Below the pieces are notes generated by a model. The model was not told the origin of the DNA, searched no databases, and worked only from the letters and a program-made list of their open reading frames with translations. A program made the translations under genes and the position numbers. This document shows positions 7,417 to 15,529 of a stretch of DNA of 32,424 nt, piece after piece. Position 1 is the first letter of the stretch, and each line of letters begins with the position of its first letter. Where the stretch lies: the NCBI GenBank assembly GCA_018829545.1, contig JAHJTX010000145.1, positions 1 through 32,424 on the forward strand, read 5' to 3'. This DNA is from Bacteroidota bacterium (lineage in GTDB: Bacteria > Bacteroidota > Ignavibacteria > Ignavibacteriales > Melioribacteraceae).

Positions 7417-7944
7417 TCAAGTCTCATTTTTAGATACTATCAAATTACACGAGGCGCAAAATGAGTTAGATTTTATGTCAATTTCGTCGGCAACGGTTGA
7501 ACTGGACATTACACAAGAAAAATTCGCGCAATGTCTCAGCCCGATTAAATGCCCAAACTCGTGAACAGCTTCTTTGATAATTCTTTCTTTTAAAATTTCT
7601 GTATTGGCGGGTAAACCGTAAAATTCGTTTCCTAATCTGTGAGTGGAAATAATTGCGGCGTTTCCGTTTACTTTTGCTAATCCAAACACATAAGTGAAAA
7701 TGGGAATATAAAGGTCAACGGAAGTGATAACCAGAGAGTAGTTCGCTTTGTCCAGCGCTTCAATATATTTTAATATTTTGGAGGCGTCATACTGCCCGCG
7801 TTCATGGTTATAATATTTGGAAATATCCTTTGATAATTGCTCAACGAAAACATCTGCCGCGATTATACTCGAAATTTTCTTTGCGAGATCCAGAAGCAGA
7901 TTGGGTAAATTAAATTCAACCGGGATAAGTTCAACGCTATGCAT
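7417..7944 (-). CDS. amzA: Archaemetzincin family zinc metallopeptidase
   Basis: Putative zinc-dependent peptidase of family M54. The 175 aa carry the diagnostic motif HEFGHLIGLRHCANFSCVM (three His zinc ligands, catalytic Glu, two Cys, Met) followed about 16 residues later by CASC, the second structural zinc pair. N-terminal HSVELIPVEFN and the central LVITSVDLYIPIFTYVFGLA are typical of the family. No signal peptide is seen, so it is probably cytoplasmic. The ATG at 7944 overlaps the end of the response regulator gene by 8 nt, placing it as the last gene of the redox/phosphorelay operon. Substrates of bacterial archaemetzincins are not well known; a role in turnover of the upstream proteins is only a guess. 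Confidence 0.88.
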   Translation of the reverse strand: MHSVELIPVEFNLPNLLLDLAKKISSIIAADVFVEQLSKDISKYYNHERGQYDASKILKYIEALDKANYSLVITSVDLYIPIFTYVFGLAKVNGNAAIISTHRLGNEFYGLPANTEILKERIIKEAVHEFGHLIGLRHCANFSCVMSSSTVADEIDIKSNSFCASCNLIVSKNET

Positions 7945-9298
7945 CTTCTGGACGGTTTATACCATAGGATTTCAGTTTCTTATAGATTGTTGCTCGGTCG
8001 AGGCAGAGAATTTTTGATGCGAGCGAAATATTCCACTTATTCGATTCCACAACATTTATAATATGCTTCTTTTCAACTTCGGCAAGAGAAAGGTTAGAAT
8101 TAAATTGAACTGTACCCATTTGGGAATTTAGAAGAAAATCTTCTTTCATTAATAAATGCTTTTTGGCAACCACCATCGCCCGTTCAATAGAATTTTCAAG
8201 TTCGCGAACATTTCCCATCCACTCGAACTGCAATAGCAAATCCATTGCAAGACTGTCAATGCCGTCAACCATTTTGTTCATTTTCTTTCGGTATTTAGAA
8301 ATAAAATGAATCACAAGATCGGGTATGTCTTCATTTCTTTCTCTCAATGGTTTTAATTGAATTACGTATACGTTTATTCTGTAAAAAAGGTCTTCACGGA
8401 ACAAGCCTTTTTTAACAGCTTCTTCAAGATTACTATTGGTTGCGCAAATTATTCTGAAATCAGATTTTATTGCATCATTTCCTCCCAGCCGCGAAAATTC
8501 TTTAGATTCAATAGCGCGAAGCAAATCGACTTGTGTTTTTGGTTGGATAGCGCCAATTTCATCGAGAAATAATGTGCCGCCGTTTGCAATTTCCAACTTT
8601 CCCTTTCTCTTGTAAAGAGCGCCGGTAAACGAGCCTTTTTCGTGTCCAAACAATTCGCTTTCTAATAGTGTTTCTGAAAATGCGCCGCAATTAACGGAAA
8701 CCATCGGTAAAAATTTTCTATCACTCTGGCAATGGATTGCTTGCGCAACCAATTCTTTGCCCGTTCCGCTTTCGCCTCTAATCATAACTGTAGTGCTTGT
8801 TGGAGCAACTATCGCAATTGATTTTTTAATCTCCTTAATATGAACACTTCCGCCAATTATATCCGGCGGAGGAACAAGTTCTTTTAAACTATCCTTAAGT
8901 TTTATATTCTCAGTTGTAAGTCGTTTTTGTTTTACCGCATTTTTTACAAGATGGCTAAGATAATCGGGATCGAACGGTTTTGTTATGTAATCAAATGCGC
9001 CTTCTTTTAACGCTTGCACGGCAGTTTCAACGGAAGCATAAGCAGTAATCATCATCACTATTGCGTCTTTGTCAATGTCGCGTATTCTTTTGTGGAGTTC
9101 CATTCCATCCATACCGGGCATTTTAATATCAAGGAAGTATATATCCCATCGCGTTGCGTTTATTTTATTAATTGCTTCAACAGCGTTTTTAGCGGTTTCG
9201 GTAAAATACCCGTCTTCTTCGAACCAGCCGAATAGCGATTCACGGACAATCTCGTCGTCATCAACAATTAATATTTTGATTTCATTATTATTCATCAT
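7937..9298 (-). CDS. Sigma-54-dependent response regulator (NtrC/ZraR type)
   Basis: Cytoplasmic transcription activator of sigma-54 promoters. Order: receiver domain (acidic DDDE near the start, phosphoacceptor Asp in YFLDIKMPGMDG, Lys in ITKPF), AAA+ domain with Walker A GESGTGKE, sigma-54 contact loop GSFTGA, Walker B GGTLFLDEIG and arginine-finger region LFREDLFYRINV. The C-terminal Fis-type helix-turn-helix includes WNISLASKILCLDRATIYKK. The contact loop has Ser in place of the usual Ala of GAFTGA, a conservative variant. The first ATG (9298) lies inside the 3' end of the kinase gene; GTG at 9304 is an alternative start. Overlap with both neighbours argues for one transcript and a dedicated kinase-regulator pair. 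Confidence 0.94.
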   Translation of the reverse strand: MMNNNEIKILIVDDDEIVRESLFGWFEEDGYFTETAKNAVEAINKINATRWDIYFLDIKMPGMDGMELHKRIRDIDKDAIVMMITAYASVETAVQALKEGAFDYITKPFDPDYLSHLVKNAVKQKRLTTENIKLKDSLKELVPPPDIIGGSVHIKEIKKSIAIVAPTSTTVMIRGESGTGKELVAQAIHCQSDRKFLPMVSVNCGAFSETLLESELFGHEKGSFTGALYKRKGKLEIANGGTLFLDEIGAIQPKTQVDLLRAIESKEFSRLGGNDAIKSDFRIICATNSNLEEAVKKGLFREDLFYRINVYVIQLKPLRERNEDIPDLVIHFISKYRKKMNKMVDGIDSLAMDLLLQFEWMGNVRELENSIERAMVVAKKHLLMKEDFLLNSQMGTVQFNSNLSLAEVEKKHIINVVESNKWNISLASKILCLDRATIYKKLKSYGINRPEDA

Positions 9299-10898
9299 TC
9301 TCACTCATTATTTTTTCTAGAGGCAGCTTTATCTTAAATGTAGTTCCCTTATTTATTTCGGAATCTACAATTATTTCTCCGTGATGCTTTTTTACTATTC
9401 CATAGACCGTTGCTAAGCCCAAACCCACACCTTTCACTTCTTTCTTAGTAGTAAAAAACGGTTCAAAAATGCTTTTTTTGATTTCGTCCGACATACCTCT
9501 GCCGTTATCTTGAACAATAATTTCCGCTTTTTTTTCGTTTGGGCGATAACGAGTTTCCACTTTCAGTATCCCTTCAGAATCCATAGCTTCGATAGCGTTT
9601 AAGTAAATTGCAAGCAGCGATTGTTTGATTAAATTCTGATCCAGATAAACTTCGGGCATCATCCTATCGAATACTTTTTGAACTCGGATATTATGTAAGT
9701 GGAGATGGTGATCAATGAGCTGGAGCGAAGAGTCAATTACATTGTTTAGGTCATTTTTGTGTATTTCAATATCGTGTTTGCGCGAAAAAAGGAGCAAGTT
9801 CTTAATTATGTTTCCGCATCTATCGCTTTCGGTTTCAATCATTTCTAAGTTCTTAAGAATTGTCTCAATATCCTTCTCTGTTGTATTTTCCTTCCTAAGT
9901 TTCCTTTGAATCAATTTGCTGTAGGTTAGTATTCCGGCCAAAGGATTGTTGATCTCATGCGCAACTGTTGCAGAGAGTTTACCGAGCGATGCCATTTTTT
10001 CTATTTGTAAGATTCGCTCTTGAGTTTTTTTCAATTCCTCTGTTTTTTCATGAACTCTATTTTCTAGTTCAATAGACCAATTCGTTATTTCATGTTTCGC
10101 TGCTTTCAAATCCTCAGTCATTTTATTGAATGAGTGCGATAACTGACCAATTTCATCGTTAGAGTACATTTTAATATTATAATCCAAATTTCCGGACGAA
10201 ATCGCCTTTGTGGCTTTGGTAAGTCTCTTAACAGGAATATGAACGAATACCCAAAGAAAGCCGCCGACCAGCAAAGCTAAAATCAATGTAATCGATATAT
10301 TGTTTGAAATCATTAGGGAAGTTTCTTCTTCCAATATTTGATCCGTTTCCTTTAATGATAAAATTACATCAAGCGTACCAAGAAGACTTTCATTTTTATC
10401 GTGGTAGTGACAATCGGAGTTATAGCAGCTCTCATTATTTTTTATTGCGCCGACAACACCCAGTAATCTGTATCCTTTCTGTGAATTATAAATTCTTTTT
10501 CTTTCCGATGTAATAGGTTCTTTAATTACATCGTCTTCGCTTTTATGGCACATAAAACATGCTTCGTTGTGCATGTCGACCGTTCTATTTATTTCTTCGG
10601 CGGCTGATGAAAAAATAATTTTACCTTTTTTATTGTAGATCCTTATCTTCTCAATGGCTCCTTGAGATGCGACGCTTTCAATTAGCTTATACGCTTCTTT
10701 CTTTGTATCGGAAATCATTGCCTGTGAGAGTACCCCTTGAATTAATGAACATGCTCGCATCCCCCAAGAAACCACCATCTCTTCGTAATTTTCGCGTTGA
10801 GTTTTTATTTGCAGATATGATTCGATGAATGTAAAGACAGACAAGACGAAGATTATTAGTATAAATAATCTAAAACTTATTAATTTTAGCGCCCGCAT
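9288..10898 (-). CDS. Membrane histidine kinase with periplasmic c-type haem motifs
   Basis: Sensor kinase of the pair with the downstream regulator. From ATG 10898 ([20 protein letters not shown]) the order is: membrane segment about residues 8-28; periplasmic domain with CFMCH (114-118, a CxxCH haem site) and CYNSDCH (158-164, a CX4CH site as in cytochrome c3 types); second membrane segment ([15 protein letters not shown]); HAMP; coiled coil; HisKA with phospho-acceptor in [13 protein letters not shown]; HATPase with N box [13 protein letters not shown] and GLGLATVYG. An upstream in-frame start at 10985 exists but would add a poor N-terminus. The haem motifs suggest sensing of redox state, O2/NO, or electrons from the upstream HybAB-like module; covalent haem is inferred from the motifs. 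Confidence 0.9.
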
Positions 10899-11049
10899 AG
10901 TGATCCATCCATTTCTTATAAGTCTTATTATCGCAACCGGCATAAAGAATGGCTGCAATAAAAAGTGAAGAGAATAGCACTGCATAAAATAAATTATTTA
11001 TTATACTTTAGCTATTCTCTTCTTAAAACTGTTGAAAAATTAGAGTACC

Positions 11050-11751
11050 TTATTTTGTTAAAAGAAACTCTTTAGCAAGTTCATCCCAATTTTCGGGCGA
11101 TATCTCTTTTGAGAATCCGTCTTTTAATTGACCTCCATCTTGCAGAGCAAACCCTAAATCACCCGTCGTTAAACGACTCAATTTATGCGAGACCTCTTCC
11201 ATCCATGCTTTTGCCAGATCGCCGGAAAGCAGATTTACCAAATTAGCTTTTAGCTTAGGAACTCTTACTTTGAACAGCCATGAATCACTTTCATCAGTTC
11301 TTCTGCTGAATAAATCAGGATTATCAACTGCATCCTGGTTAATCTCAACGACTTCACCATTAACAGGAGTAAGTAAATCAATTCGTTTGCCGTCAATCTC
11401 CATGCTCATTCCCATTTCCCCTTGAGCAATATTTTCACCAAGTCTGGGCAAATTTATTTTATTGGGAGTTCCAAGTAGTTTGCTGGCAAAATCGTCAATT
11501 CCAATACTTACAACGTTTCCGCTTTCAACCTTAACCCAGCAATGCCCTGGGTGATAAAAATAATTTTCCAAAATCTGGAACCAGTTGATAAGTGTGGATT
11601 CTATTGCAGCCGGAATTGAAACTCTAGCTGTTAATCTTGCCGGTTTTTCCAGATACCGGAAAAACATAACAAAGCTTATAAGAAACATAATTACCAGCAC
11701 ATATTCTATCCCTTTTGTTGAAAACAAATCATAAAAATAATTGCTTTCCAT
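11050..11751 (-). CDS. Membrane-anchored GcvH-like protein lacking the canonical lipoyl-lysine (copy 1)
   Basis: One N-terminal membrane segment (about residues 15-31) is followed by a GcvH-fold domain (about 66-150). That domain runs HPGHCWVKVESGNVVSIGID, then LPRLGENIAQGE, then LTPVNGEVVEIN and DSWLFKVRV, all matching glycine cleavage H protein. H proteins have ESVK eight residues before the conserved Pro; here that lysine position is Gly121, with a Lys only at the next position. Classical lipoylation is therefore doubtful. The start is the second ATG (11751): AAGGAG lies 6 nt before it, whereas it touches the first ATG at 11757. No other glycine cleavage genes are near. Its place directly after the HybB-like gene suggests a subunit or assembly role in that complex; exact role unknown. 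Confidence 0.8.
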   Translation of the reverse strand: MESNYFYDLFSTKGIEYVLVIMFLISFVMFFRYLEKPARLTARVSIPAAIESTLINWFQILENYFYHPGHCWVKVESGNVVSIGIDDFASKLLGTPNKINLPRLGENIAQGEMGMSMEIDGKRIDLLTPVNGEVVEINQDAVDNPDLFSRRTDESDSWLFKVRVPKLKANLVNLLSGDLAKAWMEEVSHKLSRLTTGDLGFALQDGGQLKDGFSKEISPENWDELAKEFLLTK

Positions 11752-11783
11752 TTTCATCTCCTTAAAATTTATTTGTCAATTAA

Positions 11784-13004
11784 CTAATGCTTTTCATTTT
11801 TCACCCATACAGGCGAATCACTTAAAATTGGCATACGGTGTATAATCCAGCGCAAAACTAAAATTTCCAGGAATATGATCGCCAATGTTATTTCAATTTC
11901 CATCCATGATGGGAAATACCTATCGGCTGCATACCACTTGAATGCAATTACAGACACATTCAGTCTATTCAGAATAATTCCCAGCATTGTAATAATGCCT
12001 CCAATTTTAACCCATAATTCATTTCTGTACCGGAATGCCTGCGTAAATATTACGCAAGGCAGCGCTACAAAACCGATCATTTCCACCAGCCATAAAACTC
12101 CCATTTGTGAATTTAAGTGCACCCAATGTTCGCCGTGAATAAATAATAGGAGCTTCAAGAAAAGGTAAACATAAAGTACAACAGCGCAGATTTTTGCCAA
12201 GCCGAATAAAATTGAGTTATGAGATTTGCTTACCTCATCGCTCATTCGGTTTTTAAATACTTTGTGGCTGATGCTTCCCTCAACAATCACCATGGAAAGT
12301 CCTGCAAAAATGCTTGACACAAAGAATAAAATTGGAATAAATTCTGAGTACCACAAAGGATGAATTTTATTTTTTGCCATTAGAAAAAGCGCGCCTAAAC
12401 CGGATTGGTGAAGCGTGGAAAGCGTAATGCCAAGTATCACGGCTCCTAATGTCAGTCCGTGTAAATATTTTCTTACCTTTCTCCATCCGAGCCATTCGGC
12501 AAACGCAGGGGAAATCTCCACCAATTCGGTTAGCATGTAAAGCATAAAATGCCAGGCAACCAAAAACATTACAGAGCTAACTCCGAATGAATTGCCAATT
12601 ATAGGATTTATCACATTCCAGGGTTTACCTAAATCAAGTAAGAGAGCGCCCGCATAAAAGACATAAGCCAAAAAACCATTTAATACGGTTACGCGGATTA
12701 TTGGTTTGTATTTTTTATCGCCGAGGATGTAGACAATAAAGCAAAGTGAATACGCTCCACCGGCAAAAGCGACTCCGGTAATTACGTCAAAGCCAATCCA
12801 AATTCCCCATGGATATTCCTGAGATAAATTTGTTACAGCGCCCAATCCTTTTACAAAGCGTAAAACAATCAATACCGCCCCAATTGCAATAATAATGAAT
12901 GCTATTACATTGAAATGAGTAATAATTTTGCTTTTCGGTTTAAGCTCACTCAAAATGAATTTGTAAGTGGATTTAATATTAATGCCCAGTTCATTGCTAC
13001 TCAT
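11784..13004 (-). CDS. HybB/NrfD-family membrane quinone-reactive subunit
   Basis: Polytopic inner-membrane subunit that in related complexes (HybB, NrfD, PsrC, HmcC) exchanges electrons with menaquinone. About 406 aa with about ten hydrophobic segments. Typical family stretches are YPWGIWIGFDVITGVAFAGG near the N-terminus, LLLDLGKPWNVINP and LSTLHQSGLGALFL. The ATG at 13004 is preceded by a near-perfect AGGAGG, so it is preferred to the in-frame start at 13022. It overlaps the 3' end of the HybA-like gene by 8 nt. No hydrogenase or cytochrome catalytic subunit is encoded in this window, so the electron partner is unknown. Confidence 0.9.
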   Translation of the reverse strand: MSSNELGINIKSTYKFILSELKPKSKIITHFNVIAFIIIAIGAVLIVLRFVKGLGAVTNLSQEYPWGIWIGFDVITGVAFAGGAYSLCFIVYILGDKKYKPIIRVTVLNGFLAYVFYAGALLLDLGKPWNVINPIIGNSFGVSSVMFLVAWHFMLYMLTELVEISPAFAEWLGWRKVRKYLHGLTLGAVILGITLSTLHQSGLGALFLMAKNKIHPLWYSEFIPILFFVSSIFAGLSMVIVEGSISHKVFKNRMSDEVSKSHNSILFGLAKICAVVLYVYLFLKLLLFIHGEHWVHLNSQMGVLWLVEMIGFVALPCVIFTQAFRYRNELWVKIGGIITMLGIILNRLNVSVIAFKWYAADRYFPSWMEIEITLAIIFLEILVLRWIIHRMPILSDSPVWVKNEKH

Positions 13005-13863
13005 TTTCAACCTCCTCTGCATTATTAACTTTTCCCTTCATCGCATTCCTCATTGCAAGCAGAAATGGCGGCCAAAGGATTATTACTAATGGCACACTAT
13101 AGAGAAATCCGGTAGTTAATTCGGGATACGCATCGTTGCCAAGATTTGTTCTAAAGTTAATTTCTTCAAACGGAACAGAAGAAAGGTAAAGCACACAAGT
13201 TCCTCCGGCTTCATGTTCACCGTAGATATGATTTACGTAATCGTCCGGTGATTCAGCAATTCTTCTTTTAGCTTCAGTCAGCAGTTCTGTGCGCTTTCCA
13301 AAAATAATTGCTTCACTTGGGCAGTTTTCAACGCATGCGGGCAGTCCTCCTTTTTGTTGTCTTTCAAAACACATTGTGCATTTAACAATTTTTGGATTTG
13401 CGCTATGGTACTCAAATTTTGGTACGTCAAACGGACACGATAACATACAAAAACGGCATCCCATGCATTTGTCTTCGCGCCAGATTACAGGACCTTCTTT
13501 AGTTTTAAGCATGGCTTTGGTTAAACAAGCCGAAGCACAAGCTGGTTGGCTGCAGTGCATACATTGTTTCTTTACGTAAATCTCATTCTCTTCATTTTCA
13601 TAAAGATTAATTAGTGTGAGTTGATCTGTTGAAGTATCTCTTTCCTTTTCTAAATCCGAATCATTCATTTCAAATTCCTGCATTCCGTTAGCTTCTAAGC
13701 AAACTTCCTCGCAAGTTCTGCACCCCGTGCAGAGCGTAGTATCAATAAGAATTGCATTAAACTCTTCTCCGGGCGATGATTTACTTTCGGCTCCTTTTGT
13801 GATAGTAGGAAGAGTAGACAATCCGATCGCTCCGAGTGTTTTTACGAATGTTCTTCGTTCCAT
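12997..13863 (-). CDS. Tat-exported HybA-like 4x[4Fe-4S] ferredoxin subunit
   Basis: Periplasmic electron-transfer subunit. The 288 aa start with a twin-arginine signal (MERRTFVKTLGAIGLSTLP). Four Cys clusters follow: CTGCRTCEEVC, CMHCSQPACASAC, CMGCRFCMLSC and CTMCFERQQKGGLPACVENC, enough for four [4Fe-4S] centres as in HybA/DmsB/NrfC. Near the C-terminus a hydrophobic stretch (VPLVIILWPPFLLAM) should anchor it in the membrane, as in HybA. It lies 51 nt after the first gene and overlaps the HybB-like gene. Known HybAB relay electrons from a periplasmic partner to menaquinone; direction and partner here are open. Confidence 0.92.
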   Translation of the reverse strand: MERRTFVKTLGAIGLSTLPTITKGAESKSSPGEEFNAILIDTTLCTGCRTCEEVCLEANGMQEFEMNDSDLEKERDTSTDQLTLINLYENEENEIYVKKQCMHCSQPACASACLTKAMLKTKEGPVIWREDKCMGCRFCMLSCPFDVPKFEYHSANPKIVKCTMCFERQQKGGLPACVENCPSEAIIFGKRTELLTEAKRRIAESPDDYVNHIYGEHEAGGTCVLYLSSVPFEEINFRTNLGNDAYPELTTGFLYSVPLVIILWPPFLLAMRNAMKGKVNNAEEVENE

Positions 13864-13914
13864 ATTCTTTTCCCTATAAACTTGATAATAATTCAGTTGG
13901 TTTTTCTGATCTAT

Positions 13915-14604
13915 TTATAATTGATTGTGATGGTTTTCGTTTACGTGTGGAAAAAACTTTTGTATAAATATTTTCCAGTTTTCTTCGGGCATACTTTTCA
14001 TGTATGAAGGTTCAATTTGCCCTCCGTCATTAAGGCAATGTTCGTGTTGTGCAAATGCCAGGAAGTCATCCATTAGAGCATTGTTCATCATTGAAGCCTG
14101 TTGAAAATTCATTAAATTTTTCTTTTCATTTTCTATGTTGGATGGTTTTATTTTCAGTATCCAAGATTTTTCTACATCATTTGAGGCTAAAGGCAATCCG
14201 GCATTGCATGCGGCGTTCACTTCAACAACTTCTCCCGTAACTGGCGATAGCTGAGAAATTTTGTGTCCGTTGATTTTAACATCCCAGATTTTTGAACCTT
14301 GAGTTATTGACGAGCCCACTCTTGGTAAACTCTGAATCCTTACATCAAAATTAAAGAGCTTAGAAATGAATTTGTCAAAGCCAAGGTATGCTTCGTATTC
14401 TTTTGCAGGCAAAACCCATGAATGACTTAAATGAAAGTATCGACTCTTTTCACCACCTACAGGAAGTAAGGCTTTTTCCGGAGAAAGAAAAATTGGATTT
14501 TGTTTTTGCCGAAAGGATATTTTCTCCTCTCTATCCTCCCTTTTAAGGAGCAGGTTAAGAATGACGAAAAATAATATTGTTATTATTACTAATGCAGCGA
14601 CCAT
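13915..14604 (-). CDS. Membrane-anchored GcvH-like protein lacking the canonical lipoyl-lysine (copy 2, first gene of operon)
   Basis: Same plan as the protein at 11050: one N-terminal membrane helix (MVAALVIITILFFVILNLLL) then a GcvH-like domain with LSHSWVLPAKEYEAYLGFDK, LPRVGSSITQGSKIW, LSPVTGEVVEVNA and KSWILKIKP. The position of the lipoyl-lysine, eight before the conserved Pro, is Gly113, with His114 next and Lys115 after it. The C-terminus (SMPEENWKIFIQKFFP) matches the tail of the other copy (SPENWDELAKEFLL), so the two are paralogues. ATG 14604 is chosen because GGGAG lies 8 nt upstream; an ATG at 14619 overlaps that site's leader. Role unknown; the pairing around HybA/HybB genes suggests a structural part of that complex. 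Confidence 0.78.
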   Translation of the reverse strand: MVAALVIITILFFVILNLLLKREDREEKISFRQKQNPIFLSPEKALLPVGGEKSRYFHLSHSWVLPAKEYEAYLGFDKFISKLFNFDVRIQSLPRVGSSITQGSKIWDVKINGHKISQLSPVTGEVVEVNAACNAGLPLASNDVEKSWILKIKPSNIENEKKNLMNFQQASMMNNALMDDFLAFAQHEHCLNDGGQIEPSYMKSMPEENWKIFIQKFFPHVNENHHNQL

Positions 14605-14638
14605 CGAATAATCTCCCATTATGTGTTTATGGTATTAT

Positions 14639-14654
14639 CCCAAATAATATGCCA
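14639..14654 (-). promoter_or_regulatory. Possible sigma-54 (-24/-12) promoter for the GcvH-like/HybAB operon
   Basis: On the minus strand TGGCAT-ATTAT-TTGGG resembles TGGCAC-N5-TTGCA, with GG in place of the -12 GC. It lies about 35 nt before the chosen first start codon. The operon itself encodes a sigma-54 activator, which makes autoregulation plausible. The imperfect -12 element keeps this tentative. Confidence 0.35.
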
Positions 14655-15158: not shown

Positions 15159-15285
15159 CTAGTAGGTTGTCCGAGAACTGCGTAATTTCATTCTCCAACG
15201 GTTTTAACCGTTGGTTTATAAGCTAAAAACGCACTTTTTGTTATCCGTTTTAACGGATTTCCTAGTTCTCGGACAACCTCCTAGT
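15159..15285. mobile_element. Miniature inverted-repeat (MITE-like) element, copy 2, about 120 bp
   Basis: AGGTTGTCCGAGAACT (15164-15179) and AGTTCTCGGACAACCT (15264-15279) are perfect 16-bp inverted ends. CTAGT occurs on both flanks (15159-15163 and 15281-15285), which may be a target duplication. Inside are two hairpins: CCAACGGTT-TT-AACCGTTGG (15195-15214) and ATCCGTT-TT-AACGGAT (15243-15258). No transposase is encoded. It sits inside low-complexity DNA and shares CCGTTTTAACGG with copy 1. Confidence 0.7.
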
Positions 15286-15529
15286 GTTTTTAACATTGTT
15301 ATTTGCTATTTGGAATTTATTTGAATTTTGTTCTTTGCCATTTGTTATTTTCTGCCATAAAAAACAAGAAAACCAGAACTAAGTCACTACATTTTTCCCT
15401 TTGAAAAATAACTAAAGGAAAAAATGAATAATGAATTTCGAACAATGAAGTTGAAATACAGATTGCTTTCACTTCGATATTCATTATTCCTTGTTCAATA
15501 TTCGATATTCAATTATCGTTAACATGTTA
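15286..15529. repeat. Intergenic inverted-repeat DNA
   Basis: AT-rich spacer with GAATAATGAAT (15426-15436) and ATTCATTATTC (15479-15489) as inverted arms, plus TATTTG-rich DNA that mirrors the ACAAATA array on the other side of the miniature element. No gene seen. Confidence 0.45.

Follow-up and report, generated by a model that had tools for sequence, protein, structure and literature searches.

Lipoyl-lysine-free, membrane-anchored GcvH-fold proteins in an NrfD/Fe-S and two-component operon of Ignavibacteriales

GcvH-fold proteins within and outside glycine cleavage

The glycine cleavage H-protein GcvH (PF01597, TIGR00527, NF002270) is a soluble cofactor carrier of ~130 amino acids (aa), with a lipoyl-lysine that lies in an E-S/A-V-K motif. 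Divergent GcvH paralogues are found outside glycine cleavage, among them the chlamydial not_gcvH protein (TIGR03077), the NF045810 family (GcvH_rel_desulf), and GcvH-L of streptococci and staphylococci. GcvH-L retains the lipoyl-lysine. LbpA of the sHdr sulfur oxidation system is also GcvH-like, and its lipoyl-lysine is strictly conserved (PMC6067878). Here we describe a pair of GcvH-like proteins that lack this lysine, encoded in a 32,424-nucleotide stretch of DNA (contig JAHJTX010000145.1, assembly GCA_018829545.1; hereafter the window) from a bacterium of the order Ignavibacteriales. Copy 1 (P0001, 235 aa) lies at 11050..11757 and copy 2 (P0002, 234 aa) at 13915..14619, both on the minus strand. 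For copy 2 the second ATG, at 14604, is an alternative start that fits the starts of homologues (MVA...) better than 14619.

Both copies can be assigned with confidence to the GcvH fold, which follows a single membrane helix at the N terminus. Pfam GCV_H (cut-off 22.2 bits) matched copy 1 with 63.8 bits (E=1.8e-17) and copy 2 with 41.3 bits (E=1.7e-10), and the copies are 32% identical to each other across 171 aa (E=9e-23). Their AlphaFold models each had a mean predicted local distance difference test score of 84, with values mostly above 90 in the GcvH domain. A Foldseek search of the PDB with the copy 1 model returned, at E<=0.001, only H-proteins or GcvH-like proteins. The best match was 1onl_A, with an E-value of 3.3e-12 and a target template modelling (TM) score of 0.89; the lipoylated E. 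coli H-protein 3ab9 matched with a target TM score of 0.90. Copy 1 comprises a transmembrane helix (residues 7-37), the H-protein fold (66-173) and a C-terminal extension of two helices (179-198 and 221-232) with a DGG motif at 207-209. Copy 2 has its transmembrane helix at residues 3-39, followed by the H-protein fold and a C-terminal DGG extension. An earlier note on this DNA, written from the sequence alone, had recognized H-protein fold motifs and a membrane helix unlike classical GcvH in both proteins. Profile, model and structural search agree on the fold, and the models place the helices.

The pair shares with GcvH the fold, the H-x-W motif, and the proline and glycine that follow the hairpin. 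Residues invariant in 36 sequences of the family were H72, W74, G86, D88, F90, P131, G134, W160 and the DGG motif (copy 1 numbering). In contrast to GcvH, the two proteins are 234-235 aa long with a transmembrane helix, carry a DGG extension that GcvH lacks, and belong to a redox and two-component operon. They scored 62.4 and 43.4 bits against a curated GcvH equivalog cut-off of 115.85 bits. Matches to the profiles of the divergent paralogues were weak (48 bits against a cut-off of 144, and 24 against 150), and GcvH-L, unlike the pair, is not a membrane protein. The likeness to LbpA extends to the tie with a redox system and to an HdrA-like fusion within the pair's family (below), but no shdr cluster is present among the operon genes. 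Judged from sequence, membership in either GcvH or LbpA fails on the defining feature that was tested, the lipoyl-lysine.

The position of the lipoyl-lysine

We defined the lipoyl position as P-8, eight residues before the conserved proline. The residue there is G123 in copy 1 (proline P131) and G118 in copy 2 (proline P126), in line with the glycine read at this position by the earlier note. That note had also described neighboring lysines shifted by one or two positions. These are K124 (P-7) of copy 1 and K120 (P-6) of copy 2, which it listed as Lys122 and Lys115 since its numbering began at downstream ATGs; its end coordinate, 14604, is likewise the second ATG of copy 2. Copy 2 additionally has K115 at P-11, and its P-7 residue is histidine. 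The note had proposed structure prediction as a check for a lysine at the hairpin tip, and in the models both tips are two-residue turns without one. The copy 1 hairpin is formed by strands 115-121 and 124-129 around D122-G123, with K124 opening the return strand. The copy 2 hairpin is formed by strands 110-116 and 119-124 around N117-G118, and its lysines K115 and K120 are both strand residues.

In an alignment that included canonical GcvH, lysine occupied P-8 in all four canonical sequences versus 6 of 48 free-standing relatives, 1 of 17 fusions to receiver domains and 1 of 44 members of a four-cysteine paralogue group (both described below). The free-standing relatives mostly have asparagine or glycine at this position, and 37 rows of the four-cysteine group have tryptophan. 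A second sample, drawn mainly from Acidobacteriota and Deltaproteobacteria and sharing some members with the first, gave lysine at P-8 in 5/61. Homologues therefore do not conserve a tip lysine, though lysine is frequent at P-7, where it was found in 27 of the 48 free-standing relatives, including all four copy-1 orthologues. It was found there in only one of the 17 receiver fusions and one of the 44 four-cysteine members. Counting any position from P-9 to P-6, 39/48 free-standing relatives have a lysine. A frequent but unfixed P-7 lysine beside a tight turn is what would be expected of an ordinary hairpin. A Pfam search of the operon proteins detected no lipoyl ligase. The unconserved column, the lysine-free tips and the lack of a ligase in the operon support the lipoyl independence suggested earlier.

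The operon and its relatives

On the minus strand the operon reads GcvH-like copy 2, iron-sulfur (Fe-S) protein, NrfD-family protein, GcvH-like copy 1, sensor histidine kinase, sigma-54 regulator and archaemetzincin. Neighboring genes are separated by no more than 64 bp and overlap at three junctions. The Fe-S protein (12997..13863) is an HmcB/HybA-like multi-[4Fe-4S] protein that matched NF045715 with 319 bits, under the cut-off of 420; it has a twin-arginine motif (MERRTFVK) and a hydrophobic C-terminal transmembrane tail. The membrane subunit (11784..13022), a predicted quinone-side protein of HmcC/HybB-like type, matched NF045714 with 409 bits, under the cut-off of 550. The kinase (9288..10985) has HAMP, HisKA and HATPase_c domains, a domain with one CxxCH motif (residue 143) between two transmembrane helices, and a weak match to the Mcp40H-20 sensor. 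Domain profiles identified the product of 7937..9304 as a response regulator with REC, sigma-54 AAA+ and HTH_8 domains, which with the kinase makes up an NtrC-type two-component system. The last gene (7417..7944) encodes an archaemetzincin by Pfam (Peptidase_M54), the only match to this family above cut-off in the genome and a recurrent last module gene in relatives. All of these genes are on the minus strand.

In NCBIfam, the Fe-S and NrfD subunits came closest to the Hmc complex (HmcB/HmcC) and to HybA/HybB of hydrogenase 2. A twin-arginine translocation (Tat) signal together with a C-terminal tail is also typical of HybA/HmcB-type Fe-S proteins, which are inserted by Tat and anchored by the tail (PMC10924467). 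As in HybAB-type pairs, the window combines such a protein with an NrfD-family subunit. Unlike Hmc, the window operon contains no HmcA, HmcD, HmcE, HmcF or hydrogenase gene; c4 or c13 cytochromes occur in relatives only. What it adds to the Hmc and HybAB arrangement is the two GcvH-like subunits, the heme kinase, the sigma-54 regulator and the archaemetzincin.

The same gene order was found in dozens of Ignavibacteriota contigs, and variants of the module in Acidobacteriota, one genome titled Deltaproteobacteria and candidate division KSB1. Neighborhoods were counted for relatives with at least 5 kb of flank per side, taking genes within 6.5 kb. A 16-row alignment was too diverse for a genome scan and the four-cysteine paralogue was used instead. 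Of 34 free-standing copies, in a nonrandom sample biased for that paralogue because many neighborhoods were found through it, all 34 had a second GcvH-like gene nearby. The Fe-S, NrfD and heme kinase genes were each near 31, the sigma-54 regulator near 29 and the archaemetzincin near 20. None of four canonical gcvH genes had such neighbors. Profile matches at E<=1e-28 were obtained in 21/148 sampled genomes of the window's phylum, in 29/119 genomes of an Acidobacteria-centered sample and in 35/118 of a sample centered on a Syntrophobacterales genome, where some ~150-aa frames may be canonical GcvH. In a tblastn search of plasmids, the matches listed fell only in places annotated as gcvH or unannotated, and none covered 80% of the query. 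The open-licence literature yielded no published account of GcvH with NrfD/HybA, of GcvH domains, of REC-GcvH or of archaemetzincin operons. As far as we could find there, both the recurrent gene set and the GcvH-like family are undescribed.

The second copy in many Ignavibacteriota has diverged and bears a C-x12-C-x5-C-x2-C motif at its N terminus, and two of three such relatives tested had no Pfam match. The four cysteines (CIWMxSxxVDYKLCDxNFDCENCxFD; L040:11084-11836, L038:4205-4936 and others) are a possible metal or Fe-S site.

A sister module was found at six loci (L036, L038, L039, L045, L046 and L052). Its genes encode Fe-S and NrfD proteins, in most cases a cytochrome with 13 hemes, then a heme kinase and two fusion proteins, REC-GcvH-like (~266 aa) and transmembrane-REC-GcvH-like (~385 aa), in which Pfam identifies Response_reg and GCV_H. 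The fusion genes follow the Fe-S, NrfD, 13-heme cytochrome and heme kinase genes at L036:3609-5573, L038:13635-15656 and L046:6168-8154. The phospho-Asp motif (DLKMP or DIMMP) is kept by 16 of 17 receivers. In the membrane-receiver fusions the last part of the C-terminal extension is retained, and DGG was not seen in those inspected. At the sister-module loci without a copy of the first module next door (L036, L045, L046 and L052), no relative of the sigma-54 regulator was found nearby, other DNA-binding regulators not having been searched systematically. With the receivers fused and no such regulator nearby, the GcvH-like domain stands in the place of the usual response-regulator output domain.

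The domain is also found at the C terminus of a 999-aa HdrA-like/FlpD/ferredoxin/molybdopterin-binding protein from Deltaproteobacteria (L130:3532-6531). Open frames of comparable length (about 977-1058 aa) in other genomes of that group also carry a GcvH-like domain. Weak NQRA_N and Biotin_lipoyl matches were obtained for a relative of the pair. The receiver-fusion and HdrA-fusion contexts favor protein docking in redox systems over lipoate chemistry.

Membrane topology was read from charge bias. Lysine and arginine are in excess after the helix in 52 of 53 helix-bearing relatives (mean 4.42 after versus 0.34 before), so the GcvH-like domain should be cytoplasmic. The complex in the window would then have its Fe-S protein outside and its GcvH-like domains inside.

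A sigma-54 -24/-12-like element, TGGCATATTATTTGGG, lies at 14639..14654 on the minus strand, 19 bp before the 14619 start. It is weak by itself, but relatives have equivalents upstream. In 12 of 37 operons, which are not all independent, such elements precede the first GcvH-like gene by 19-60 bp (each with p<=0.05 against shuffles), and the one at L040, TGGCACTATGGTTGCT, is near-perfect. These elements suggest autoregulation of the operon by the module's regulator.

Possible role and genomic surroundings

We consider it probable that the pair are lipoyl-independent, membrane-tethered docking or relay subunits between the NrfD/Fe-S complex and the heme-sensing two-component system; this confidence attaches to docking or relay as a class of role. 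In the mechanism we envisage, the HmcB-like and HmcC/HybB-like proteins would transfer electrons between quinones and carriers in the periplasm, the kinase would sense redox state through a putative periplasmic c-type heme, and its sigma-54 partner would act on the operon. The GcvH-like subunits would dock between the membrane complex and the kinase and receiver side, and may control electron flow. The earlier note had proposed a scaffold or electron-complex subunit. This remains compatible with the operon, where the HmcB/HmcC-like pair lies between the copies, the physical association being a prediction. The note had missed the link to heme kinase, sigma-54 regulator and archaemetzincin as well as the receiver fusions, which shift the likely role towards signaling. 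A more specific version can be put forward as possible rather than probable: the heme kinase would phosphorylate receivers with a lipoyl-free H-fold as output domain, and docking of this domain on the NrfD/Fe-S complex would directly switch electron flow. The two-component system would then act on a respiratory complex instead of on DNA. In the window the domain would be tethered by its own helix and the receiver reside in the sigma-54 protein.

Several observations weigh against a docking or relay role in signaling, in addition to the sampling bias of the neighborhood counts. No REC domain is fused to a GcvH-like domain in the window; its receiver sits in the separate sigma-54 protein, and the tie to phosphosignaling comes from relatives. 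The Fe-S protein of most module relatives (e.g. L040:9158-9916) keeps the C-terminal tail and has no Tat signal, so its membrane side may vary among relatives. In the tree canonical GcvH formed one clade, the deeper forks being resolved only in part. With lysine frequent at P-7, a shifted modification in copy 1 retains a low probability.

A purely structural function, as accessory subunits of the NrfD/Fe-S complex with the two-component genes regulating only expression, would resemble the unmodified lipoyl-like fold in NqrA or RnfC. The Fe-S and NrfD genes lie between the two copies, the HdrA/FlpD fusions place the domain in an electron-transfer protein that has neither receiver nor kinase, and the weak NQRA_N and Biotin_lipoyl matches point the same way. 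However, the sister-module fusions set the domain directly behind a phospho-acceptor, and the kinase gene is linked as tightly as the Fe-S and NrfD genes, which makes a function without signaling doubtful. Lipoylation or other acylation of K124 in copy 1, or of a different lysine near the tip, seems quite unlikely. The abundance of lysines around the site in free-standing relatives and the two lipoyl/octanoyl transferases of the genome speak for it. Against it stand the histidine of copy 2, the near-absence of a P-7 lysine from the receiver-fusion and four-cysteine groups, the place of K124 outside the turn and the operon without a ligase. Moreover, work on lipoyl domains indicates that the modified lysine must be exactly in the turn, and hairpins with NGK or DGK are commonly unmodified. 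Homology to GcvH and loss of the attachment site are also what degenerate, non-functional gcvH duplicates would show, but intact frames, a gene order recurring across several phyla, the invariant residues and an extension that GcvH lacks make decay highly improbable.

A classical cofactor-carrier fold seems to have shed its cofactor and been recruited, across several phyla, into respiratory modules for signaling or docking. As the receiver fusions suggest, a two-component system may act post-translationally on an electron-transfer complex. Archaemetzincins and NrfD/Fe-S pairs also gain a defined genetic setting from this module. The only family that these proteins match is the glycine cleavage H-protein; they would therefore be annotated as such, misleading metabolic reconstruction.

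The genome has its own canonical gcvH with the lysine, at G000:C49 with biotin carboxylase, efp and guaA genes as neighbors, and no GCV_H protein was found in the genome beyond this one and the pair. The idea that the copies are the only H-protein candidates for GcvP was thereby ruled out. The expected position of canonical gcvH beside gcvP was not borne out, gcvP lying apart at C407; the two lipoyl/octanoyl transferase genes are elsewhere in the genome.

Near the operon, positions 15165-15290 of the window hold a ~120-bp element resembling a miniature inverted-repeat transposable element, with terminal inverted repeats GGTTGTCCGAGAACT...AGTTCTCGGACAACC. Five more near-full copies are present in the genome at 89-97% identity.

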